Positions 24,695-57,473 of a stretch of 64,000 bases of DNA are shown piece after piece (position 1 is the first letter of the stretch; the number at the start of each line of letters is the position of its first letter). This stretch comes from Nitrospirota bacterium (lineage in GTDB: Bacteria > JACPQY01): assembly GCA_016180645.1 (NCBI GenBank), contig JACPAV010000003.1, forward strand, positions 1 through 64,000, written 5' to 3'. The translations under genes were made by a program, and so were the position numbers. The notes beneath the pieces are model-generated. The model was not told the DNA's origin and made no database searches. It worked only from the letters and a program-made list of their open reading frames with translations.

Positions 24695-27600
24695 TCAAGG
24701 TATGAGGGGAACGTATTGGCTGGTGGTTTGAAGGGCCGTTCCGCCCGAATCGCTTCCGCCGATGGAGAAGATCCGGCCGCTCACGCTGACCGCCCCATGG
24801 ACGCGTCGCGCTGCGCCGAGGATCGTCCTGGCGGTCCAAGTGTCCGACAACGGCTCGTACTCGTGAGTGAGGGCCGACACGGTGCCATCGGTACCGCCGA
24901 GCACGAAAACCCGGCCATCGAGCCCGGCCGCGGCCAGATCGGATCTGGGGGTGGGCACGCCGGTCTTGGCCGTCCAAGTATCGGACGTAGGGTTGTATTC
25001 TTCCATGGCGCCGGCGTATGCGCCATTCCAGCCGCCCGCCACATAGATTTTCTCATGGGCGACGGCCGCCGCCATGGCGTAGCGGGCCGTGGGCATGGCG
25101 GTCTTGGACGTCCACGTGTTGCCGACCGGATCGTATTCGTTGCAATTCGCCAGAGTGGATGTGCCGTCGAATCCGCCGATTAGATAGATCTTCCCGTTCA
25201 CGGCCGCGGCCACGTGCTGGTGGCGATTGGAGGGCAGGACAGCTTTCACAGCCCAGGTATTCGCGATGGGGTCGTATTCGTCGTTCAGATTGTAAATCGT
25301 CGGGACGTTGTCCTTGCCACCCATCACGTAGATCTTGCCGTTGGCCGCGGCGGCGGAGAGTTCCCACCGCGCGGTAGGCAGTGCCGTCTTGACGGCCCAC
25401 GAGTTGGCCACAGGATCGTACTCCTCGTTTTCGGCTGATGGCGTACCCTTGTCCCCGCCGATGGCATAGATCCTCCCGTTGACCTCGGAGACGGCGAGAG
25501 CGCGCCGAGCGGTGAGCATCGGGGCCTTGTTCACCCAAGCATCGACGGGCGCGCCCGGTGCCATGGGCGTGTACTCCTCGTTTGCACCGGAGAGCGAGCC
25601 GAAATTATCGCGACCGCCAATCGCATAGACTCTGCCACCGGCTGTGGTGGCGGCGAAACGGTATCGTACTGTTGGGAGTGCCGCTGCCGTTGCCCACGAA
25701 TCGCCTACAGGGTTGTATTCCTCCACCGTGGAATACGCGGAGGCGTTGTACCCGCCCATGACATAGAGCTTTCCGCCGACGGAGGCGACCGCCGGACCGT
25801 ATCGGGCCGTTGGGGCGGCCGTTTTTGTCGTCCACGTGTTGGCGATCACATCGTATTCCTCCGTGGAGCTCAGCGCCGCGCCGTTCCATCCGCACGAAAC
25901 ATAGATCTTATTGCCGATGGCGGCCGCTCCCGTATCGCTCCGGGGCGTACCCTGGGCCGCCTTGCTGACCCATGTATCAGTCGACGGCGTGTATTCGCGG
26001 ACGGCGGCGACGTAGACAGACGAATTGAATCCGCCGAAGACGTAGATCTTTCCGTTGGCGGCCGCCGCTTGAGGGCCGCTGACGGCGTTGGGCATAACCG
26101 CCTTGGTCGCCCACGTGTTCGCAGCGGTGTCGTATTCGTAGTTGGTATTCTGGACGGTGCCGTTGACGCCACCCAGAGCATAGACTTTTCCCGCCAGACA
26201 GGCGGCGGCCACTTGTTGACTGCCCGCAGGCATCGCAGCCTTGGCCGCCCACGCGTTGGCCACCGGATCGAACTCTTCGTTCGCGGTGGTCAGGCCGAAG
26301 ATGTCTCCACCGACGGCGTAGACCTTCCCGTTCCCGCAGGCCGCCACGCCATGATGATACCGGGCCGTTGTCATGGCGGTTTTCGACGCCCAGGTGTTTC
26401 CGCCCGCCGCGCCGACTTTTTCAGCGGTGTTCGTATCGGAATTCCCCGCCTCGTCCTGCGCGCGGACGACGAAGTAGTAGTTCGTATTCTTCACGAGGCC
26501 GCTGCTGACGGCATAGGTCGTAGCCCCCGCCGCAGTGGTGTATGTGGCAGTGAATGAGCCACCGCAGGTTCCCGCACTCGTCGACTGGCAGATCTTGTAG
26601 ACCAGAGAGCCGGCGGCCGTTACCGTGTCGGATCCCGCCGCCCACCCCAAGGTAATGGAAAGATTGTTCACCGCGAGCGAACTGATCCCGGCAAAGGTGG
26701 GAGTGGAGGTGTCGAAGGTGAAGGTGCTCCCCGTCCCCGGCGTTTCCACGCTGTTCAAGTTGTCCGTTGCTCGGGATTGGATCGTGTACTGGATTCCGTC
26801 AACCCAGGCCGGGACGGTGGAATAGCTCCAAGAAGTCGTTCCCGTTGTGAGAAGCCATGTTGTGGCGGGGTTGAAGGCCGTTCCGTTCCAGTACTTGCCG
26901 TCCGAGACTCGCAGGATTGTGATTTCGACTTTCTGTACACCGCTGCCGGTCCCGGGATCGGTTGACGAACCCGCCATCGAGGCGAGTGCGGCCAGTTTCG
27001 CGTTGTTGGCGGGACTTGTGACGGAAGAGGTCGGGGGCACGCCGTCCGGCACCACGCCATTGGAGGAAGCCCACGCACCGGTATTCCCCGCGGCATCCAA
27101 CGCGCGAGCGCAATTGTAGTAGGTGGTGTAGTTGGTCAGGGTCAGCCCGGTGGTGTTTTTCCAGTTGTTTGCGCCGTTGCCGGCCGTGGCGAGGACGTCT
27201 CCCGTGCAGCCCGTGGTGGTGCTGATGTTGTAGTCGTACGAGGTCACGTTGATGTTGTCGCCGAAGCCGGCCCAATTCGCATCCATGGTCGAAGTGGATG
27301 ACTGGAAGGCGAGGTCCGCGCCGGTGCCATCGCTTACCGATCCCGATACTGGGGCGATGGTGTCCTTTTGAACGAAGAACACGTCGTTCAAAACGGCGGA
27401 GTTACCCGCGTTGTCGAAGGCCCTCACGCTGACGAAGTTGTTCGTCCACTGGTTCAGGGACGCAAAGGCCACGCCCCAGTTCGTCGTGTACGAGGCCGTG
27501 CCGATCCCTGTGGCAATGTTAGTGAACACAATGAGCTGGGTACCGGTCTGCCCGGTGGCATCCCACACGGTGTATTGGACGTAGCTCAAATTGCTGCCAC

Positions 27601-30600
27601 CGGCGTCGTTGAAGTCCACATCGTAGATCGCGCCGGGATCGGCATTCCGCCAGGTGGTGTCGCCCGCCTGGTTGTCGGCGATCGTGGGAGAGGCGATGTC
27701 GTTGGTGGCGGTGGCCGCCGAGGACTGATTGGTGGCGGCATCGGTGGCGGTCACATAGACTGTTGCATTCGCATTGTCACCGATGGAAAGGGATGTGAAC
27801 GAGCCGTCGCCTGCCGCGGTTCCAGAGACGATCAGAGTCGTGAGCAGGCCATCCGCCCATACTTTGACCGTTGAGTTTGCCTCGACGGAGCCCACAGGGC
27901 CGGACACCGAGTCGGCCGTACTTGGGGCGTTCTGGGCTACGGCGACTCCCGTAGGCGTTGCCGGGGGCGTCGTATCGAGAATGATCGTGTCGGTGAAATC
28001 CGCGGAGAGGTTCGACATGAGGTCGCGGATTTGGAAGGTCACCGTCTTGGACCCATCGCCCGCCGTGAGCGTCCAGGCTTTGGAGGCCGAGGGCGCCTCA
28101 AAGATCTCGGTGTCCCAGACGCCGTCGTTCGAGTAGCGCACCTGGTCCACTCCGGCGCCGGAGGCGTCGCTGTAAACCAAAGCCAGCGTGACCGACTGGC
28201 TGTTCGCGTAGGCGGCGCTGCTGTTGATGACCACGCTGCCGGTGGGACCCTGTTTGTCGATCATCACCGTCACGCTGCATTTCTTGGTTTCGACATTGCC
28301 CACGGAGTCGCCGGACTGATAGCAGACGACTTTCTTGCACGCGCTGCCGGAGGAGCAGGTGACGGGAACGGCGGTGCCCGCTGTGGAAGGAGTGCAGCCC
28401 GAGCCGGTTCCGGTCAATTTTCGGATTCGATGGTTCGAAGTGTCTGCGATGTAGAGGTCGCCCGCGGCGTCCAATTCCACGTCGCTGGGGTACTGCAATG
28501 TTGCAGAGGCCGCCGGGCCGCCATCGCCGCTGAAGCCGCCCGAACCCGTGCCGGCCAACGTCGTGATGATACCTGATGCATCCACCTTTCGAATGACATG
28601 ATTCGAGGTGTCGGCGATGTAGACGTTTCCGGCCGCGTCGGCCACCGCTTCTTTTGCATAGGAGAGGGTCGCCGCGGTCGCCAGTCCGCCGTCGCCGGTG
28701 TACCCGTTCGTGCCCGTTCCCGCGATGGTGGTGACGGTACCCCCCGGATCGCGCTTGTAGACGCGGTAGCTGGACGTGAAGAAGAGATTGCCGGAGGCAT
28801 CAACGGAGACGCCGATGTTTCCGCCTACGGATGTACCGGAAAGCAGAGTGATGGTTCCGCTGCCATCCACTTTTCTGACGCTACCGCATTCGCCGCCGAT
28901 GAAAATATTTCCCGCCGAATCGACTGCGATGTCGTGGACGTAAGTGAGCGTGGCGCTGGTGGCGGGTCCGCCATCGCCCGTGCAGCCTTGTGAACCGGTC
29001 CCGACCACGATGCTGAGCGTGCCACCGGTATCCACTTTGAAGACCTGATGGGTGTTCCGCTCGGCGATGTAGATGTTCCCAGAGCCGTCTACCGCCACGT
29101 CTTCCGGCATGCCCAAAGTGTAATTCGTGGCTGCGCACGGCGCCGCGCAACCCGCGCCGCCGCCGGCGACAGTGCTGATCGTGCCGCCGGGCGTGACCTT
29201 GCGGACGCGGGCCTGACCGGTGTCCGCGATATACAAGTTGCCGGCCGAATCGAAGGCCTGACCGGCCTTCTCCGCGCCAAGGATCAGACTGAGTTGTGCG
29301 CTCGTGGCGGGGCCTCCGTCGCCGAGCGATCCGCCGCCGCCCGCGAAGGTGCTGATGACGGCGGGAGGATCGGTCACGCAGTAGTTGGTGGAGGCGACGC
29401 CGGAACCCGTCCCGTCGGATGGGCTGAGGTTCACCCCGACATCGGCCGCTTGCCACGGCGTGGGAGCGTCGTCGGTGGTCGTCGGCGCCTGCTTGTCGAT
29501 CTGAATGAATTTCGAGACCACGCTCTGGACGTTGCCCACGGCATCGGTCGATTGATATCGCGCGTAGTTCTGGCAAACCGACGAGGGCGAACAGGTAACG
29601 GAAATGGACGTCCCCGGTGTGCTTGGGGCGCACGTATCCGAGGCATCGACGCAGTACGATGTGGCGGCGACTCCCGAGCCGGTCTTGTCATCGAGCGTCA
29701 GAGTCACCGTTACGTCCGCCCCTTGCCAGCCCGCGGGAGCGTCATCGGTCGTGGCCGGCGCTTCCTTATCCATTCGGACCAGTTTGGAGATGACGGTTTC
29801 CACATTGCCCACCGCATCGGTGGCTTGGAAGCGTACGTAGGTGGGGCACACGGTGGCCGGAGAGCAGGCGACGGCGAATGGCGCGGTGTAGACCGTGGCG
29901 GGAGCACAGGAATCCGCGCCATCGAGGCAGTAGTTGATTCCGGACACACCCGATCCGCCGCCATCGCCCGCCGAGAGGGTGACCGTCACATCGGCGCCCT
30001 GCCAGGCGACGGGTGCATCATCTGTGGTGGCCGGCGCCTGCTTGTCGATGCGCACCAGCTTGGAGACAACGGATTCCGCATTCCCAACCCCATCCACCGA
30101 ATTGAAACGGATGTACGTTTGGCAGACCGAACCGGTGGAGCAGGGGATGGAGACCGGGGCCGTGTAGGCGCTGGTTGGCGCGCAGGTGTTCGTGCTATCC
30201 GTACAGTACGTTGTGGAGGCGATACCGGACCCGGCTCCGTCGAAACCGCTCAGGGTGACGGAAACGTCTGCCCCTTGCCATGCCGCGGGGGCATCGTCCG
30301 ATGTCGTCGGCGCCTGCTTGTCGATTCGAACCAGTTTGGACTGGGTGGTTTCCAAGTTTCCCACATTGTCCGTCGACCGGTAGCGAACGTACCGGGGGCA
30401 AACCGTCCCGACGGGGCAAGTGACGGAGACCGCCGTTCCCGCGGTGGACGGAACGCAAGTGTTGGCGGAATCCACGCAATAGTTCGTTCCGGCTACTCCC
30501 GAGCGGGCATCGGTGGGACTCAGAGTCACCGTCACATCACCGGGAACCCAGGAGGCCGGCCCGTCGTCGGTCGTGGTCGGCGGAATCGTATCGCAGGTCC

Positions 30601-33484
30601 TGGAAACCGTCGCCGAACCGCCGATGTTTCCGGCCGCATCCGCGGCCCGCATGTTGAGGCTGAGAAGAGTCCCGTCGGCGCAAACAATGCCGACTTTGGA
30701 GCAGGTTCCTGCGCTGTAGGCAGCCGCCAGCCACGTTGAGCCTCCATTCACGGTGTATTGGCAGTTCGTGATGGGGTTCAGATCCGTGAAGGTCGTGCTG
30801 ACATTATAGATGCCATCGACGTGGGTGGCCGTAGCGGTTGAGGCAGGCGCTACCGCTCCGGCGCTCGGTGGCGTGACATCCACCGTGAACTGTCGCGCGG
30901 TCGAATAGACGCTCGCGTTCTCAGCGGCATCGAGGGCCCGGATGCGCCAATAATACGGCGCCTCCGGAAGCGGATTGGGATATGCGAAACCGCTCGCCGT
31001 TAACCCCGTGTATTCGACCACCCCATAGGTAAATAAGGCATTGGCCGAAATTTGAAACTCGACGGAGACGGTATCGGCGGACTTGGTCCACGTGAACGAC
31101 GGTTTGACTATGTTCGTATGCGTCCCGTTCGTGAGCACTCCGGGCAGGGGCACGGCGGGGGGAACCGTATCCACCGTCCACATGTAGGACAACGGCGGGG
31201 AACTATTGCCCACCGGATCCCAGCCCACCAAGACGAAATTGTGTTCTCCGTCCTTCAGACCGGTGAGCGTGGTGGGAGACTTGCATCCGCCCGCAGGAGC
31301 CCCGTCGAGCGAGCAAGTCACCCACACTTCGAGATCGTCAGAAGCAAACCCGAAGACGGGTGAGCTGACATTGGAAATCAACCGGGGATGAAGCGTAAAC
31401 CAAACCACCGGGGGGGTGAGATCGAGGAGCCAATCATACCGGGCCGGTGTGGGGTCGTGGTTTCCCGCGGGGTCCACCGCTTCCACGGCAAGACGGTGCG
31501 CGCCGCCTTTCAGTTCCTTGATGGAGAGAGGGGAGGAACAGCCCGTCGGGGGGGCGTCGTCGAGGGAGCATTCGAAAGCGGCACTCGAGTCGGGCGATTC
31601 GAAGAGAAAACCGGCCGAGGTGATCGCCGTTCGCGCATCGGGATGGCCGGTGATTCGTGTGTCCGGCGGGGTCAGGTCCACGTTCCACGTGAACGAAGCG
31701 GGAGTCGGATCGCGGTTCCCCGCGGCATCCTGTGCGAATACGCCGAGCGTGTGCGCCCCTTCCGTCACCGTCAGCACAGCGGGTGAAGTGCACGGCGCCG
31801 GTGTCCCCACGTCGAGCTGGCAGTAGTAAGAACAGGCGGTGGGCGATGGTCCGCCTGAGGCGGATTGGGCGGTGGAAGGATCAGAGCATGAGAACTCGAA
31901 GGAAGCGGACGCGCTCTTGACGAGGATAGCCGGATGCATCGAGATCGTCGTTTCCGGCGGGGCGGTATCCACCGTGAAGGTCACTTGGGCGGGTGAGGCA
32001 TCCACATTTCCGGCCGCATCCCTGGCGCGAACTGAAAACTGGTAGACTCCATCGCCTTTCGTCAGAGTCAACACCAAGGGCGATTTACAGGCGATGAACG
32101 CCGAGCCGTTCAGCGAGCACTCGAAGGTGAAGCCGGGTTCGTTGTCCGTTCCGGAAAACTGGAAATTGGCCGAGGGCTGGTTGATGAGGAGGGCCGGCGG
32201 GACCGTGAATTGAGTCTCCGGCGGGGTCGTGTCCTTCATGGCCAGATAGATTTTCAGCGTGACCGGCGTGGCGTCGGCATTGCCCACCGCATCTACGGCT
32301 TTCACGGAGAGAGCGTGTGCCCCATTGGGCGCCGTGGGTTGATAGACCGCGGGACAGGGTTGAAACGGCCCACCGTCCAGGGAGCATCGAAAGACACATG
32401 TCGTGTCGTCGCACCCCAACTTGAACACATCGGCGGCAGTGGCGATCACGCAGAACTCCGCCACTTCTTTGCACGGGGAGGTCACGGTGGTTTCCGGAGG
32501 CGTAAGATCCACGGGCTTGAGTTCGATCTTGACCTCCGTGGCGGTTTGCGTGCCTGACCGTTTCAGGTCGTCCTTCACTTTTGTTTCCAGTTTGGTCGCC
32601 ACATTCTCGAAAGCCTTTTGGACCTGCGCCTCCGTGGGCTTGCTCTCCGCGTCCTTGGCTGCGGCCAGAGCTTGTTTCAGATCGCCGGCAGGTTTCCCCT
32701 CGCCCGAGGCAGAGGAGTTCAGCACCGTGACCACTTCGGTAAGGGTGGCCACGCCGTCTCCATCGCCATCCGGGAGTTGGACCTCATCCTCGGTCAGATC
32801 CTTGTCTTCCATTTGGAACGCTCCGCCGGCGCCCGAGTCGGACCTGCCTCCGTCGGCCCCGGTCGACCCGGCTACATTCACCTGGGTATCCAATTCGACG
32901 AGCGGAACATCGGCGTTGCTCTCCGGGTGAACTTTCGTTTCGAACTGGTTTCCCCCTTCAATGAACTGATCCTGCGACATCACGAAGGCGGTTTCGTAGA
33001 CGAAAACGATGTCGGCACCGCCATCCTGACGTTTCGGGGCGGATCGAGGGTTGTTGGCGGGCATTCGATTCGCACCATGGCTCGCTCCCCGCGCATCGGC
33101 TCCCCTTACTCCGCCGCGGACGCCTCCGCGAATTCCGCCCTGCTCGGCGCCCTGGACGCCGCCCCGGATGCCGGACGCCTCAGCGCCCCGAATGCCGGAT
33201 TGGACCTCGCCCCGGATGCCCCCGCGGATCCCGCCGCGAATTCCTTCCGCGACGAGCTGACCATTGACGTACACGTCCGTCACGAGTTGACTCTTCTCCG
33301 CGATTCCGTTGAGCGCGGCCGCCGTTTCGGCCGAGAGCGGGAGGGCCATCTCCAAACCCATGGCCCGGGAGGGCATCTTCCGGATGGGGAGGTCTGAGAT
33401 CTTGTTGACGCAGGCTGCAAAGGCCAGTGCGGCCATAATCACTGCCCCCATCCCGATCGATCGGATTGGTCCCCCGGTGTTCAT
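24695..33484 (-). CDS. Giant multidomain lipoprotein with NHL and kelch propellers
   Basis: About 2929 residues, anchored by a lipobox (LAFAAC, near 20-25). Order: GIRGG repeats (33080-33255); an EF-hand-like loop DGDGDGVATLTE; about five Ig-like CSLDG repeats (about 32480-31150); an FN3-like segment; five DDAPxxW repeats of about 85 residues (about 30600-28260); an NHL six-blade propeller (about 29360-28420) placed inside the fifth repeat; more Ig/FN3 modules; and twelve kelch motifs (about 26400-24700), enough for two six-bladed propellers. Likely an outer-surface adhesin or carbohydrate-binding protein. ATG 33484 is chosen; GTG 33508, with GGAGG 4 bases upstream, is an alternative. Confidence 0.85.
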   Translation of the reverse strand: MNTGGPIRSIGMGAVIMAALAFAACVNKISDLPIRKMPSRAMGLEMALPLSAETAAALNGIAEKSQLVTDVYVNGQLVAEGIRGGIRGGIRGEVQSGIRGAEASGIRGGVQGAEQGGIRGGVRGGVRGADARGASHGANRMPANNPRSAPKRQDGGADIVFVYETAFVMSQDQFIEGGNQFETKVHPESNADVPLVELDTQVNVAGSTGADGGRSDSGAGGAFQMEDKDLTEDEVQLPDGDGDGVATLTEVVTVLNSSASGEGKPAGDLKQALAAAKDAESKPTEAQVQKAFENVATKLETKVKDDLKRSGTQTATEVKIELKPVDLTPPETTVTSPCKEVAEFCVIATAADVFKLGCDDTTCVFRCSLDGGPFQPCPAVYQPTAPNGAHALSVKAVDAVGNADATPVTLKIYLAMKDTTPPETQFTVPPALLINQPSANFQFSGTDNEPGFTFECSLNGSAFIACKSPLVLTLTKGDGVYQFSVRARDAAGNVDASPAQVTFTVDTAPPETTISMHPAILVKSASASFEFSCSDPSTAQSASGGPSPTACSYYCQLDVGTPAPCTSPAVLTVTEGAHTLGVFAQDAAGNRDPTPASFTWNVDLTPPDTRITGHPDARTAITSAGFLFESPDSSAAFECSLDDAPPTGCSSPLSIKELKGGAHRLAVEAVDPAGNHDPTPARYDWLLDLTPPVVWFTLHPRLISNVSSPVFGFASDDLEVWVTCSLDGAPAGGCKSPTTLTGLKDGEHNFVLVGWDPVGNSSPPLSYMWTVDTVPPAVPLPGVLTNGTHTNIVKPSFTWTKSADTVSVEFQISANALFTYGVVEYTGLTASGFAYPNPLPEAPYYWRIRALDAAENASVYSTARQFTVDVTPPSAGAVAPASTATATHVDGIYNVSTTFTDLNPITNCQYTVNGGSTWLAAAYSAGTCSKVGIVCADGTLLSLNMRAADAAGNIGGSATVSRTCDTIPPTTTDDGPASWVPGDVTVTLSPTDARSGVAGTNYCVDSANTCVPSTAGTAVSVTCPVGTVCPRYVRYRSTDNVGNLETTQSKLVRIDKQAPTTSDDAPAAWQGADVSVTLSGFDGAGSGIASTTYCTDSTNTCAPTSAYTAPVSIPCSTGSVCQTYIRFNSVDGVGNAESVVSKLVRIDKQAPATTDDAPVAWQGADVTVTLSAGDGGGSGVSGINYCLDGADSCAPATVYTAPFAVACSPATVCPTYVRFQATDAVGNVETVISKLVRMDKEAPATTDDAPAGWQGADVTVTLTLDDKTGSGVAATSYCVDASDTCAPSTPGTSISVTCSPSSVCQNYARYQSTDAVGNVQSVVSKFIQIDKQAPTTTDDAPTPWQAADVGVNLSPSDGTGSGVASTNYCVTDPPAVISTFAGGGGSLGDGGPATSAQLSLILGAEKAGQAFDSAGNLYIADTGQARVRKVTPGGTISTVAGGGAGCAAPCAATNYTLGMPEDVAVDGSGNIYIAERNTHQVFKVDTGGTLSIVVGTGSQGCTGDGGPATSATLTYVHDIAVDSAGNIFIGGECGSVRKVDGSGTITLLSGTSVGGNIGVSVDASGNLFFTSSYRVYKRDPGGTVTTIAGTGTNGYTGDGGLATAATLSYAKEAVADAAGNVYIADTSNHVIRKVDASGIITTLAGTGSGGFSGDGGPAASATLQYPSDVELDAAGDLYIADTSNHRIRKLTGTGSGCTPSTAGTAVPVTCSSGSACKKVVCYQSGDSVGNVETKKCSVTVMIDKQGPTGSVVINSSAAYANSQSVTLALVYSDASGAGVDQVRYSNDGVWDTEIFEAPSASKAWTLTAGDGSKTVTFQIRDLMSNLSADFTDTIILDTTPPATPTGVAVAQNAPSTADSVSGPVGSVEANSTVKVWADGLLTTLIVSGTAAGDGSFTSLSIGDNANATVYVTATDAATNQSSAATATNDIASPTIADNQAGDTTWRNADPGAIYDVDFNDAGGSNLSYVQYTVWDATGQTGTQLIVFTNIATGIGTASYTTNWGVAFASLNQWTNNFVSVRAFDNAGNSAVLNDVFFVQKDTIAPVSGSVSDGTGADLAFQSSTSTMDANWAGFGDNINVTSYDYNISTTTGCTGDVLATAGNGANNWKNTTGLTLTNYTTYYNCARALDAAGNTGAWASSNGVVPDGVPPTSSVTSPANNAKLAALASMAGSSTDPGTGSGVQKVEITILRVSDGKYWNGTAFNPATTWLLTTGTTSWSYSTVPAWVDGIQYTIQSRATDNLNSVETPGTGSTFTFDTSTPTFAGISSLAVNNLSITLGWAAGSDTVTAAGSLVYKICQSTSAGTCGGSFTATYTTAAGATTYAVSSGLVKNTNYYFVVRAQDEAGNSDTNTAEKVGAAGGNTWASKTAMTTARYHHGVAACGNGKVYAVGGDIFGLTTANEEFDPVANAWAAKAAMPAGSQQVAAACLAGKVYALGGVNGTVQNTNYEYDTAANTWATKAVMPNAVSGPQAAAANGKIYVFGGFNSSVYVAAVREYTPSTDTWVSKAAQGTPRSDTGAAAIGNKIYVSCGWNGAALSSTEEYDVIANTWTTKTAAPTARYGPAVASVGGKLYVMGGYNASAYSTVEEYNPVGDSWATAAALPTVRYRFAATTAGGRVYAIGGRDNFGSLSGANEEYTPMAPGAPVDAWVNKAPMLTARRALAVSEVNGRIYAIGGDKGTPSAENEEYDPVANSWAVKTALPTARWELSAAAANGKIYVMGGKDNVPTIYNLNDEYDPIANTWAVKAVLPSNRHQHVAAAVNGKIYLIGGFDGTSTLANCNEYDPVGNTWTSKTAMPTARYAMAAAVAHEKIYVAGGWNGAYAGAMEEYNPTSDTWTAKTGVPTPRSDLAAAGLDGRVFVLGGTDGTVSALTHEYEPLSDTWTARTILGAARRVHGAVSVSGRIFSIGGSDSGGTALQTTSQYVPLIP

Positions 33485-33818
33485 TTGACTATCCCCGCTT
33501 CGATTCACAATACCTCCAGCTGTTACGGCTACCCTCGTCGATATGCTATCTCGGGTTCGACTGGGAGCCCCACCCTTTTTTCTCGATTACTCCACCTTCT
33601 ATGTCATGGTGACCCGCGTTGGCGTCACGCTAATTCCCTGCGGTGGCACAACGCACAGTCTCCGCTGTATTTGGGCCGGATTCTATCTCGCCGACCGTAC
33701 CAAAGTAAAGCAAAATCGCACTTGGAGTGAAACTCGAATTATGATCTATATCAGTATTCCAGAAGTGGGAAATTCCTTCCATTTTGAGCCGATTTGTGTG
33801 AGACTGCCGACGCTTGCG
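33485..33818. other. Intergenic region between divergent surface-protein genes
   Basis: 334 bases between the divergent giant lipoprotein and OmpA-domain genes, noticeably more AT-rich near 33690-33790. It must hold both promoters, but I find no -35/-10 pair good enough to name, no terminator and no credible small gene. Confidence 0.4.
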
Positions 33819-35633
33819 ATGTGGCGTCTCTTTTTTGCAACAGCCATCTGCGTGGCCGTATTCCGCCCCCCGCTTTCTCTGGGCGAGGACGCAGTGGCCG
33901 GCCAACCCTCGGCGGATAACTCGATGTCGCTGTCCGGGCTGCCGGGCGCTTTCCGCGCGATTACGGGATTTCTGCCTTCTGCCGAACGGGTTTTTCAGTC
34001 CAGCACGGCGGGGTATTTTTCCAAGAAAGGTCTGACCCTCAGCGGCGAGGACCACAGCGGCATTGAAGGGCGATACGCCTTGTCGGTCCGACCATGGTCC
34101 ATGGGGCGATTCACCCGGATGACCTTTGCCTTCTCGATGGAGGGCCGGTTTTATCGGCTTGATTCCGAAGATGGGAAGGGCGACACGACCACGTTGGGCA
34201 ATCTGGGCCTCGGTTTCACCTATTCGTTGTGGCAGGGAGAGAACGCCGGCGTGAGCGTGGCTGTTCCCATTCTCATTCCGGCGCGTCCGGGCGGCGGCCC
34301 GGATGTGAGCGCGATGAGTCCGGAGTATTCGCTCGCCGCTTCCTTCCGAAAACTTTCGCCGCGCGGGGCGTTGCGTCACATCTTCGACATCAACGCGGGA
34401 TACGCGGTGGACAAGACCGAGACCGTTCTCAAGCACGCGAAGGTGGATCTCATCCGTCGAACGCGGCTGGCCGCCGGGGCGATCAGCGAGACCGCGTTTG
34501 TTGCCCGCCTGGCCTACTCCGCGCAAGTCCCGGGGAGACGCGCCACCCCTTCGCCCTTCTTCGAAGTTTCCACATGGCGTGACGTGGATGGAAAGGCGAT
34601 CAATTCGTTTGGTGAAAAAACAAAATTGAAGTTCTCGGCCAACCCGGTGATCGTCACGCCCGGTCTGAAATCCTTCGTCTACTCGAATCTTCAGGCCGAT
34701 CTCGCGGTGGATCTCGGGCAGTTGACGGGTCGGTTTCCCGACGAGAATGAAGTCATCGCCCCGTGGAGAATCTGGGTGGGCCTGGCGTGGCTGCCGTACG
34801 AGGCGCCGGGACTCCACGCGGCCGAAATGGAGTACCCCCGGGAGGTCCCGTTTGCGACGCCGGAGATGTTTGGATTTGGAGTTCCCGCCGGAGTCGGCGG
34901 AGCGCCCTCCTCTCCGGCCGCGGTTCAAATTCCATCCGGACTCCCTGCCGGGGGTACGGTCGCCGAGCCGGCGCCGCCTCGACCGCTTCCATTCGCCCCC
35001 TACCGAACAGAGGTGGAAGGTCCCATGATCGAGGAGGTGAAGTCCGCGGCGCGGTATCTCGCCGTTCACACCGATGCCCTCGCCCGCGTGGAGGGGCACA
35101 CCGACTCGAAGGGGCCGAAGTGGTACAACAAGATGTTGTCGACGGAGCGCGCGAAGTCGGTTGTGGAATTTCTTGTGGCCGAGGGGATCGATGCCTCGCG
35201 GCTGATGCCGGTCGGCCTGGCCGATGCGGAGCCCATTGCGCCCAACAATACGCGCGAGGGGCGGTCCAAGAACCGGCGCGTCGAGATCGTCATCATTCAG
35301 CCGGCGCCCTGGAGCATCGGATTTGCCCACCACAGGACGAAACTCGGAACGAAAGGGCAGGCGGTCCTCGACGAAATCGCCCGCCTCCTGAGTGAGAAGC
35401 CCGGCGCCAGGCTGCGGATTGAAGGCCACAGCGACGGGACCGGCGCCGAAGTTTGGAAAGCTCTTTACGCCACATGGCGGGCGGGGGCCGTTCGGGACTA
35501 TCTTGTGGCCAAGGGCGTGGACCTGGGCCGGGCGGACGTCGTTACCTATTCCGATCTGAAACCGGTCGCTCAGAACACCGACCCTGCGGGCCGCGCCCAA
35601 AACCGGCGGGTCGATCTCCGAATCACCGAGTAG
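33819..35633 (+). CDS. Outer-membrane protein with two tandem OmpA domains
   Basis: 604 residues. A signal peptide (MWRLFFATAICVAVF) begins at the chosen ATG; upstream sequence in the same frame is non-homologous. A beta-strand-rich region (about 50-370) resembles an outer-membrane barrel, then comes a Pro-rich linker. Two peptidoglycan-binding OmpA-C domains follow: the first with ARVEGHTDSKG and NRRVEIVI, the second with LRIEGHSDGTG and NRRVDLRI. It would tether the outer membrane to the cell wall. Two OmpA domains in tandem is uncommon. It is divergent from the giant lipoprotein, so a shared surface role is possible. Confidence 0.85.
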   Translation: MWRLFFATAICVAVFRPPLSLGEDAVAGQPSADNSMSLSGLPGAFRAITGFLPSAERVFQSSTAGYFSKKGLTLSGEDHSGIEGRYALSVRPWSMGRFTRMTFAFSMEGRFYRLDSEDGKGDTTTLGNLGLGFTYSLWQGENAGVSVAVPILIPARPGGGPDVSAMSPEYSLAASFRKLSPRGALRHIFDINAGYAVDKTETVLKHAKVDLIRRTRLAAGAISETAFVARLAYSAQVPGRRATPSPFFEVSTWRDVDGKAINSFGEKTKLKFSANPVIVTPGLKSFVYSNLQADLAVDLGQLTGRFPDENEVIAPWRIWVGLAWLPYEAPGLHAAEMEYPREVPFATPEMFGFGVPAGVGGAPSSPAAVQIPSGLPAGGTVAEPAPPRPLPFAPYRTEVEGPMIEEVKSAARYLAVHTDALARVEGHTDSKGPKWYNKMLSTERAKSVVEFLVAEGIDASRLMPVGLADAEPIAPNNTREGRSKNRRVEIVIIQPAPWSIGFAHHRTKLGTKGQAVLDEIARLLSEKPGARLRIEGHSDGTGAEVWKALYATWRAGAVRDYLVAKGVDLGRADVVTYSDLKPVAQNTDPAGRAQNRRVDLRITE

Positions 35634-35762: not shown

Positions 35763-36422
35763 TCAAATTGCCGGCGCCAGCCGTCCATGCTTCAACGTGA
35801 CCACCCGATCACCCAGTTCGCCGATCTCCGGATTGTGAGTGACCACAACGATGGTTTTGCCCTCCGCATGGAAACGGCGCAGAAGGTCCAGGACAATTCG
35901 CTCGTTGTCGACGTCGAGGTTCCCCGTCGGCTCATCGGCCAGGACGATCGCAGGATGATTGATAAGAGCCCGCGCGATACAAACGCGCTGTTGCTCGCCC
36001 CCGGAAAGTTGCGACGGCTTGTGAGCCAGGCGGCCGCCCATCCCCACGGACTCCAGCGACTCTGAGGCTTCCCGCTCATCCACCATGCTGTGGAAATACT
36101 GAGCCAGCATGACGTTCTCCAAGGCGGAAAGGTAAGGAACGAGGTGAAACTGTTGGAACACCAGTCCGATTTTTTCCCTCCGCCATCGGATGAGGGCGTC
36201 GCCGTTCAGCCGCGAAATATCCTGCCCGTCGAAGAGGAGGGCGCCGGTCGTCGGGACATCCAGGCAGGCGATCAGATTGAGGAGCGTGGTCTTTCCCGAA
36301 CCCGACGGCCCCATGATCGACACCCATTCGCCCGGTCGGATATCAAGATCAACCCCCTCAAGCGCCTGCACGTCGCCGTACCGCTTGCCCACGCTTTTCG
36401 TTTCGATGCAAGTCATGTTCAA
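35763..36422 (-). CDS. ABC transporter ATPase of the P19 iron system
   Basis: 219 residues, LolD/MacB type. Walker A GPSGSGKTTLL, signature LSGGEQQRVCIA, Walker B IVLADEPTGN and the H-loop VVVTHN are complete. It is the last gene of a seven-gene operon whose order (FTR1, P19, DUF2318, two permeases, ATPase) matches the Campylobacter p19 locus, so it should power the two FtsX-like permeases above. ATGA overlap of 4 bases with the preceding permease. Between its stop and the convergent OmpA gene (129 bases) I see no terminator. Confidence 0.92.
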   Translation of the reverse strand: MNMTCIETKSVGKRYGDVQALEGVDLDIRPGEWVSIMGPSGSGKTTLLNLIACLDVPTTGALLFDGQDISRLNGDALIRWRREKIGLVFQQFHLVPYLSALENVMLAQYFHSMVDEREASESLESVGMGGRLAHKPSQLSGGEQQRVCIARALINHPAIVLADEPTGNLDVDNERIVLDLLRRFHAEGKTIVVVTHNPEIGELGDRVVTLKHGRLAPAI

Positions 36423-37549
36423 TCCCCTTTCAAGAGGACGGCCGGCTGGATCTTCCGAACCTGGCGGAGCGGGAGGATCGCTCCGAGCAGGCTGAGCAAC
36501 ATCGAGAGAACGAGAAGGAAGGGGATCAGCCCCGGGTGAAAATCCATGGAGGTTCCGAACATGGTCCGTTCCATCCGTTCCGCCATCGCCGCGCCCAGAA
36601 GAGATCCGACGATGCCGCCCACTAGCCCGATCACCGCCACTTCGCAGAGGAAGTGAAGATTCAATCGCCGGCTCGTGGCCCCCAGCACCGTCATCAGCGC
36701 CATTTCTCTCCGCCGCTCGGTGACCATCGTCATCAAAGCAATCAGAAGCCCCAGGAGGGAAGAGGCGGTGATAAGAATGACGACCGTCTGAACGATGGAT
36801 CGAATCCTGCCCAGGATTCGGCCTTCCGACTCCCGGAGCCTTCGGATGGGATGGGCGCGGGCGCCGGGAACGGCCGACTCCACTTTCCGCGCGAGCGCAT
36901 CGACATCCACATCTTCGGCGAGGAGGTTGACCAACACCATGTGTACTTGCCCAGGCCGATCAAACAGCCGCTGGGCGTGAGGCAAAGGCAGAAAGACTTG
37001 GTCGTCCTCCGCCCCCCCTGTGTCCACGATCGCCGTGATCACGCAGGAATGGGTCCGTCCTCCCGATTGAAGCATCGCGGCTTCCCCCAGTTGAACATTC
37101 AGCTTCTCCGCGACGGACTTCCCCAGGAGACACGCATCCATTCCGGCCGCGCCCGCCGGTTCGCCCTCCTGAATCTGCCAGTACGGAGTCACCGTGCGGA
37201 TCGCGTCGAACCGCATCCCGGCTGCCGCCATCCGGCGTCCATTCCACTCCACCACGTCGTACAGGAAAGGTTGAGCGCCCAGGACGTGTCCCTCGTGAAC
37301 CAGACCCGTCATTGTCGTCACGGAATCCTCCGGAAGGGTTTCGACACCGTCGGCGGGTTGGATCACGAAGTTCGCGCCGCTCTCCCGGAGTTCGCGGCTC
37401 ATCTGGACACGTACATCGGCGTACAGCGTCATGAATGCACCGATGACGGAGGTCCCCAGCCCGACCGACAGTACGGCCACCCACACGCGGCCGGACCTCT
37501 CCTTGAGCGATCGGAAAAGTAGCCGCAAGAAAAAGCGCGAAGGATCCAT
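36419..37549 (-). CDS. FtsX/MacB-type ABC permease (second)
   Basis: 376 residues: one N-terminal membrane helix, a periplasmic domain of about 200 residues and three C-terminal helices, the MacB/FtsX plan. It pairs with the permease upstream and the ATPase downstream. Such proteins work as mechanotransmitters rather than channels, so the complex may drive periplasmic or reductive steps of iron handling in the P19 system. It starts 7 bases after the first permease. Confidence 0.88.
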   Translation of the reverse strand: MDPSRFFLRLLFRSLKERSGRVWVAVLSVGLGTSVIGAFMTLYADVRVQMSRELRESGANFVIQPADGVETLPEDSVTTMTGLVHEGHVLGAQPFLYDVVEWNGRRMAAAGMRFDAIRTVTPYWQIQEGEPAGAAGMDACLLGKSVAEKLNVQLGEAAMLQSGGRTHSCVITAIVDTGGAEDDQVFLPLPHAQRLFDRPGQVHMVLVNLLAEDVDVDALARKVESAVPGARAHPIRRLRESEGRILGRIRSIVQTVVILITASSLLGLLIALMTMVTERRREMALMTVLGATSRRLNLHFLCEVAVIGLVGGIVGSLLGAAMAERMERTMFGTSMDFHPGLIPFLLVLSMLLSLLGAILPLRQVRKIQPAVLLKGD

Positions 37550-37555
37550 CGCGCT

Positions 37556-38842
37556 TTACCCCTCCGCCAACGTTTGAGCAGGCCGGATCTTCCAGATGAC
37601 GCGCGCCGGGAGGAGCGACCCGCCGAGGGCCACCCACGTGGACAACATCACCGTCAGCGGCAGCACCCACCACTTGAGGGACGCCCATGCGCCGAATACA
37701 TGCAAGCTGATGAACTGGGAGAGGGCCATTCCCATCAGGCATCCCAGCGCGCCTCCGACAACGCCCACGATGCCCATCTCACCCAGGAAGAGAAAGGCCA
37801 GCGTGCGGTTGGAGGCGCCGAGGGCCTTCGCCAATCCAATTTCCGTCCTGCGATCCATCACCATGGCGCTCATGAGACTGAAGACTCCAAGAGCCGATCC
37901 CAAGAGTGCCACGAGGGTGACCACGGCCATCAGGAATTGGACTTTCCGAACCACGACCCCCTCCGATTCCGCCACCTGGCGGACAACCTTGGCCGCCACC
38001 CCAGGGAGGGCCTCTTCAATCTGGTAGGCCACGGCATCCACATACGGGGAACAATACCAGGTGTCGAATTCACGCGTGGTCAACTCATGGCGATGAAACC
38101 GCGCCCGCCTGGCCAGATCGTTGTCCGGAGATGTGAGAGCACTCACCAGCACTTGATCGACAGCGTCCTTCCGTCCGGTCAGGTCCTCCATCGCTTCAAG
38201 CCCGCAAAGAATCTGCTCGTCCTCGCTCCCACCCGTTCGCACCACGCCCGAGACCTGAAGGGGCACCGACGGCCCCCCCCCCGGTCGGCCCACGCGGACC
38301 ACACCGCCCGGACGAATCCCCAGTTCCCGCGCCAGCGCGATCCCGACCAGGCAGCCGGGGAGCTGCGCCTGCTCATCGGGCCAGTTTCCTTCCACCTCCC
38401 ACCACGGATGAATCAGCGAAAGACCGGTCACAAACCGCTCGTCTCCCTCCACCGGATAGCTCCGGCGGAACCACGTTCCGACCATCGTCGCTTCGCGCGT
38501 CCCCACTTTCACGTTCGTGGTGGCGAGCGGCGCGAACGCCACGATGTTGTTGCGCCAGAAAATCTCTTTCATCTTGCCTAGGCCGTTCAAAGGGATGCCC
38601 TCCTTGTGGGCGAGCGGGTTGTAGTCCACGCCGCCGATCTGCAACGGAATCGCCTCCGTGCGCGGCGCTAAAATGAGGTTGGCGCCGAACCCCTTCATCT
38701 CGCGGCTCATCTGGTCTCCGATGTCGAGCGTCAGGTTGAGGAGGGCCGCCGCCAGCGCGGCGCCCAGGGCGACACTGACCACGGCCAAGCTCTTCCGCCG
38801 CAGGTCGTTCCGCAGCGAGGCCCTGAGCATCCGGAAGATCAT
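37556..38842 (-). CDS. FtsX/MacB-type ABC permease (first)
   Basis: 428 residues with the same four-helix MacB/FtsX layout and a larger periplasmic domain (about 45-300). N-terminal sequence RNDLRRKSLAVVSVALGAAL is typical. Its start overlaps the DUF2318 gene by 4 bases (ATGA), showing translational coupling in the P19 iron operon. A heterodimer with the second permease is expected. Confidence 0.88.
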   Translation of the reverse strand: MIFRMLRASLRNDLRRKSLAVVSVALGAALAAALLNLTLDIGDQMSREMKGFGANLILAPRTEAIPLQIGGVDYNPLAHKEGIPLNGLGKMKEIFWRNNIVAFAPLATTNVKVGTREATMVGTWFRRSYPVEGDERFVTGLSLIHPWWEVEGNWPDEQAQLPGCLVGIALARELGIRPGGVVRVGRPGGGPSVPLQVSGVVRTGGSEDEQILCGLEAMEDLTGRKDAVDQVLVSALTSPDNDLARRARFHRHELTTREFDTWYCSPYVDAVAYQIEEALPGVAAKVVRQVAESEGVVVRKVQFLMAVVTLVALLGSALGVFSLMSAMVMDRRTEIGLAKALGASNRTLAFLFLGEMGIVGVVGGALGCLMGMALSQFISLHVFGAWASLKWWVLPLTVMLSTWVALGGSLLPARVIWKIRPAQTLAEG

Positions 38843-57012: not shown

Positions 57013-57146
57013 GGCACCCCATGGTAGCACACAGGGGAAGGGCCAACAGCAACATCCGAGAGCGTTCCTGTTCCCGTTTCAAGAAGATCGGGGGCGTCTC
57101 ACTCAACCCTTGACAAATTCCCACTGGCTGCGGTAGCGTGGCGGGC

Positions 57147-57366
57147 GTTACGGTGCGAGTCTCCCGCGCGAACGTGCGGGAGTGAAAAAAGGGAACTCCG
57201 TTGAATGCGGAGGCGGTCCCGCCGCTGTAACCCCGCCCCTTGCCGAAAGGCAAGGGACAAACGCTTGGTCGCTCCGCCGAAAGGCGAAGCCAAAGCCACT
57301 GGCCGGAAATCGGTTCGGGAAGGCACGACCAAGCGGCGGGGGAGCCAGAAAACCTGCTCGCACCAA
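57147..57366 (+). ncRNA. Cobalamin riboswitch aptamer
   Basis: The closing stem pairs GGTGCGAG (57152-57159) with CTCGCACC (57357-57364). Inside are the conserved core GGAACTCC...GCGGAGGCGGTCCCGCCGCTGTAACC (about 57190-57232), the GCCACTGG segment (57294-57301) and the B12 box AGCCAGAAAACCTGC (57343-57357). Together they make a class I adenosylcobalamin-type aptamer. It lies before btuB and should switch the transport and salvage operon off when cobalamin is plentiful. Confidence 0.95.
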
Positions 57367-57473
57367 GGCCCGGACTTTGCCGGGTTACGACCCGAAGAAC
57401 GGGTCGAGAACGGGAAAAACGCCGCGATCCTCGCGGAAAGGGATAAGGCGTGATGAAGAAGCTGGGTGCAATC

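Follow-up and report, generated by a model that had tools for sequence, protein, structure and literature searches.

A six-bladed NHL propeller interrupts the last OmpL47-type repeat of a giant mosaic protein in a Nitrospirota bacterium

TRIM71/Lin41 and the Bacteroides proteins 3tc9 and 3hrp carry an Ig-like domain and a propeller in tandem, with the Ig-like domain first. A different arrangement is found in the integrin beta subunit, in which the beta-A (I-like) domain is inserted in the Ig-like hybrid domain (PMC5054827). Another close known system is the OmpL47-type domain family with OmpL47 of Leptospira, which has been described as surface exposed and as binding weakly to several host matrix proteins (PMC2935396). 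The locus analysed here lies on a 64,000-nucleotide stretch of a Nitrospirota contig (JACPAV010000003.1, positions 1 to 64,000; hereafter the window), and its parts (OmpL47-type repeats, an NHL propeller and a Kelch tip) are ordinary; what stands out is the nesting of the propeller in a sandwich repeat. Searches of open-access papers turned up no description of an NHL propeller placed within a sandwich domain.

The propeller is encoded within a gene for a giant mosaic protein (24695..33508, minus strand; an ORF of 2937 aa). Its N-terminal signal with a possible lipobox is followed by IRGG repeats, an Ig-like array and five OmpL47-type repeats, and subsequently by more Ig/fn3-like domains and a C-terminal Kelch propeller region (approximately aa 2451–2937; 24698..26158, minus strand). 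The signal peptide was placed at aa 9–33 (MNTGG...ALAFAAC; 33410..33484, minus strand) from the sequence and the N-termini of paralogues. The N-terminus reads ...MAALAFAAC-VNKISDLP, with an F at –3 of the putative lipobox, and cleaner lipoboxes occur in paralogues (ILSSCYRK, VSSCSNKK and VPAC). The giant protein may plausibly be a lipoprotein, and it is probably exposed at the surface.

Dense GIRGG/GVRGG repeats lie behind the N-terminus (approximately 33070–33250 of the window; aa about 87–145), as they do in other family members such as L047. Such giant mosaic ORFs are very numerous in this genome (4.7 Mb, 65 contigs), where they form a family with lipobox-like N-termini, Ig-like arrays and assorted propellers; many exceed 1200 aa (for example L003–L020 and L079–L098), and the window protein alone has 192 matches there. 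An OmpA-family ORF (33543–35633, plus strand) is divergently oriented to the giant gene, and with a GTG start only a few bases would separate the two; beyond it an ABC transporter ATPase and then two MacB/FtsX-type permeases occupy 35763–38842 (minus strand). A cobalamin riboswitch (RF00174, 66.9 bits) was found at 57140–57375 (plus strand).

The initial annotation had described five consecutive DDAPxxW repeats sharing a segment NYCV...CTPSTAGT. Five repeats are indeed present, with motifs at aa 981, 1071, 1163, 1255 and 1346, but the first reads DDGPASW, followed by DDAPAAW, DDAPVAW, DDAPAGW and DDAPTPW; likewise, the common segment exists but varies between copies (YCV/YCT/YCL, then CVPST/CAPTS/CAPAT/CAPST). 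Repeats 1 to 4 are uninterrupted and measure 90, 92, 92 and 91 aa (aa 975–1064, 30317..30586; aa 1065–1156, 30041..30316; aa 1157–1248, 29765..30040; and aa 1249–1339, 29492..29764, all on the minus strand). Repeat 5 breaks exactly between NYCV (aa 1375–1378), which ends its N half (aa 1340–1378; 29375..29491, minus strand), and CTPSTAGT (from aa 1705), which begins its C half (aa 1705–1752; 28253..28396, minus strand), precisely as had been claimed. Between the two halves lie 326 inserted residues (aa 1379–1704; 28397..29374, minus strand), identified as a six-bladed NHL propeller by Pfam NHL, TEN_NHL, AlphaFold2 and VIA-align; six blades had been proposed before, with a length of about 310 residues that proved slightly short.

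A profile of the host repeats found repeats 1 to 4 whole, at 137–145 bits each. In repeat 5 the same profile matched in two parts, positions 1–40 at aa 1340–1379 (56 bits) and positions 43–91 at aa 1703–1752 (58 bits), and at the level of sequence such a split match, meeting at profile positions 40/43, is far beyond chance. The Ig-like host domain is, by its family match, more precisely the NCBIfam OmpL47-type domain NF047446, which covered repeats 1 to 4 in four stretches (119.1 bits against a cut-off of 40). On the fifth repeat with the insert in place, this model matched only a scrap (profile positions 6–26 of 68), and neither half alone gave a match, whereas the joined halves scored 24.0 bits and spanned positions 6–63 of 68; the joined halves of two relatives scored 21.6 and 22.8 bits. 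These joined scores lie below the NCBIfam cut-off of 40 bits, as does that of a single uninterrupted repeat, at just 28.5 bits. Thus the profile is covered by the two host halves without a gap of note, and homologues that lack the interruption are known. For annotators this carries a warning, in that the split repeat scores under automatic cut-offs and would be missed. The GC and GC3 contents of the insert equal those of the rest of the gene, and its junctions show no transposon-like direct repeat (longest 7 nt, against a mean of 6.4 in shuffled sequence), so that the insert gives the impression of having long been integrated in the gene.

The insert itself matched Pfam NHL (PF01436) at 87.3 bits (cut-off 20) and TEN_NHL at 90.7 bits (cut-off 27.1). 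Six blades were counted by sequence parsing, with blade 4 short, and a blade profile recovered five. AlphaFold2 returned a complete, closed propeller with pLDDT mostly above 90, and the six-bladed Pizza and PknD match its fold at Z of about 31–33. A blade with cysteines, AGGGAGCxxPCAAT, comes second in the window insert and fifth in its counterpart from a sibling genus (L041); blades appear to have been shuffled or duplicated inside the nested propeller. On a putative viral contig (L060, IMGVR_UViG_3300042882_000984), three NHL propellers come after a TQG collagen-like repeat, with non-NHL domains of ~150 residues between them.

Whether the host closes in structure prediction depended on the alignment supplied. 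With NHL homologues only, the propeller was confident and the host halves were disordered (pLDDT about 30–60). When uninterrupted OmpL47 repeats were aligned across the insertion, however, the host reached mostly 70–88 with a pTM of 0.81, and host strands formed on both sides of the propeller (18–21 and 34–40 before it; 374–377, 383–394 and 409–413 after it). The C halves were misplaced in alignments that combined full host-only rows with NHL-only rows, and these alignments were excluded from folding. Because the added alignment rows pair the two host halves, the model offers support, and not proof, for a host sandwich that closes around the propeller. Among the fold-search matches listed, no solved structure had the host aligned as a nested sandwich; since the propeller fills these lists, this is no evidence of absence. 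Taken together, the split profile match, the OmpL47-type score obtained from the joined halves only, the two relatives and the predicted strands on both sides support the proposal that the propeller is nested in one Ig-like domain.

The insertion recurs at the same site in relatives, and the uninterrupted repeats lack it, in answer to the question that the initial annotation had raised. A paralogue in the same genome (contig C50) reads STNYCI, 330 aa of insert and CAPSTSGT, and a third protein, from a different genus within the family (L041; JACPQY010000001.1, from a groundwater MAG with the label Nitrospirae bacterium), reads STTNYCV, 355 aa and CTPATPGA; the phylum was sampled with two genomes, namely that of the window and this one of another genus. 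Each of the three proteins has its interruption in the final repeat of the array. A tree computed with the insert removed placed the three interrupted hosts in one group, requiring one change (support 80/86; 84% of bootstrap trees), which lends moderate support to a single origin. The simplest history would be one insertion before the split of the two genera, followed by vertical inheritance and paralogue formation. The C-terminal propeller is Kelch in the window protein (11 stretches) and in the sibling (12), and RCC1 in the paralogue L043 (14), as if the tip propeller had been exchanged as a module between otherwise similar proteins.

In uninterrupted repeats the hairpin tip is closed by a CX6C pair, and in nested repeats the same two cysteines bracket the propeller. 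In the window protein these are Cys 1377 on the N side (29378..29380, minus strand) and Cys 1705 on the C side (28394..28396, minus strand), which probably form a disulfide at the propeller neck. Moreover, all three interrupted hosts carry two added cysteines, one through an R-to-C change in what is presumably strand F and the other through insertion of a C in what is presumably strand G (in the window protein Cys 1729, 28322..28324, and Cys 1744, 28277..28279, both on the minus strand). At those positions this pair is absent from uninterrupted copies; one archaeal repeat (L054) has two extra cysteines at other positions.

A second host fold was found in the sibling genome, where six NHL blades interrupt an fn3 domain of a 3072-aa protein (L042, G001:C10; aa about 1663–2108). 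The fn3 sequence breaks after SWPPAGAIG and resumes at GASNYKLKRD, in what should be the BC loop of the domain. A home-made fn3 profile left this case undecided, and it was decided by Pfam fn3, which scored the joined flanks at 24.9 bits (positions 9–75 of 84), just below its cut-off of 25, and the separate flanks at 16.4 bits on the right and without a match on the left. Among the giant sandwich ORFs inspected in the two genomes, all four NHL propellers with sandwich domains on both sides are nested; the other propellers inspected (L044, L048, L049, L093, L115, L117 and L118) run up to the C-terminus or close to it, with L044 truncated at the edge of its contig. Tentatively, this might reflect a rule for the phylum, by which an NHL propeller inside a sandwich chain is always nested and never in tandem, separately for OmpL47-type and fn3 hosts and with compensating neck disulfides in the OmpL47-type ones; the basis is four propellers, of which three or more have a common ancestry, and we regard the rule as possible but rather doubtful. 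If true, surface rods with side branches would generally be built by nesting.

Among 386 sampled genomes, a junction profile matched across the junction in no more than two, both of them from the phylum; the OmpL47-nested NHL propeller was absent from the 384 sampled genomes outside it, two of which had host halves only, as had a further 7 genomes of another phylum. In 64 genomes of one order (around G006), the matches listed comprised NHL parts and no junction-spanning match. Junction peptide patterns, which are strict and do not amount to a census, occurred at four loci in 84,980 GTDB species genomes, one being the known sibling; the others (L052, L054 and L055) were rejected as nested cases, as they hold uninterrupted OmpL47 repeats. 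Viral contigs gave no match to the junction patterns or the host alignment, and tblastn against plasmids and phages gave either NHL matches with no clear host half or nothing. Eight further sandwich models, run on 138 ORFs, gave several hundred matches, and none of these was split.

These data very probably reflect a complete NHL propeller set in a hairpin of the last OmpL47-type sandwich, with the host closed and the rod continuous. A misjoining of repeat-rich NHL and Ig genes during metagenome assembly is conceivable in a genome of 65 contigs with many related giant ORFs, which is the setting where chimaeras arise. However, the same junction is seen twice more, in a paralogue that is 59% identical and in a second, separate genome from the other genus, and reading frame, GC and GC3 run on without a break, making such an artefact extremely improbable. 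It might also be argued that the half-repeats are remnants flanking a tandem propeller, or that each completes the propeller or pairs elsewhere, as the poorly ordered halves in the first AlphaFold2 model and the modest joined OmpL47 scores would allow. Yet core motifs and conserved cysteines are kept in all three proteins and a matched cysteine pair has been gained, unlike what decay would leave, and the model closes when homologous repeats are in the alignment; we consider this reading very unlikely.

Somewhat less improbable, but still unlikely, is that the OmpL47 hairpin serves as a recurrent landing site for different domains, with the propeller as a cassette open to free exchange. The fn3 case in the sibling genome, where an NHL propeller is nested in another host fold, points in this direction, as do the C-terminal propellers, which vary freely between Kelch and RCC1. 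Against it, all three OmpL47 insertions are NHL propellers at the same residue, their hosts group together, the junctions lack the direct repeat sought above, and the survey with the other sandwich models revealed no split.

Under the preferred reading of a propeller nested in a closed host, the insertion point would correspond to a hairpin turn, presumably the one that links strand C to strand C′ in the last OmpL47-type sandwich. Since the first and last strands of the propeller lie side by side, it would fit the hairpin tip like any loop, and because its ends are adjacent in this way the rod would remain continuous, with the propeller off its side. Two crossings of the chain would hold the propeller in place, probably together with a neck disulfide of the CX6C-derived pair; the extra cysteine pair would strengthen what are presumably the final two strands of the host. 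The whole would have been inherited as a unit since the insertion, the host domain having gained its own extra cysteine pair.

The position of the propeller in the rod, together with the Kelch or RCC1 tip, suggests a multi-headed binding protein. We infer a sideways display of the propeller and a function in surface binding or adhesion; more specifically, the propeller may act as a mid-rod head for binding a ligand or partner, while the tip carries another propeller, Kelch or RCC1, that can be interchanged; the protein itself would resemble an adhesin or serve to capture nutrients, a role to which we give roughly even chances. The usual picture of giant surface proteins in bacteria is one of beads on a string, and a conserved branch point would mean side heads on a continuous rod. 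The nested propeller also offers a natural, testable template for grafting propellers at two points.

Among known systems, the insert is most similar, in sequence (phmmer 8e-83) and in fold, to the NHL propellers of teneurins and of a teneurin-like protein (9ifo and 9pt5). The likeness to 9ifo (VIA-align Z 40.9, 43% identity over 320 aligned residues) concerns the propeller only (model 37–368), and the Pfam and NCBIfam matches of the window protein include no YD/RHS family that would indicate the YD-repeat shell of teneurins. By analogy with the integrin beta subunit, a whole ligand-binding domain would sit in a loop of an Ig-like domain within a rod-like surface protein; in those animal proteins, however, the insert is VWA-like, whereas here it is an NHL propeller without VWA/MIDAS character, and no relationship is implied. 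The OmpL47-type family (NF047446) has the host in common, given that repeats 1 to 4 and the joined fifth match it; its name suggests a beta-barrel, whereas the window repeats read as a beta-sandwich and not a membrane barrel, carry conserved cysteine pairs and in one case hold a propeller of 326 aa. Finally, TRIM71/Lin41 (6fpt) and the Bacteroides proteins 3tc9 and 3hrp share the NHL-type propeller fold, but in the window protein the propeller sits inside the sandwich.
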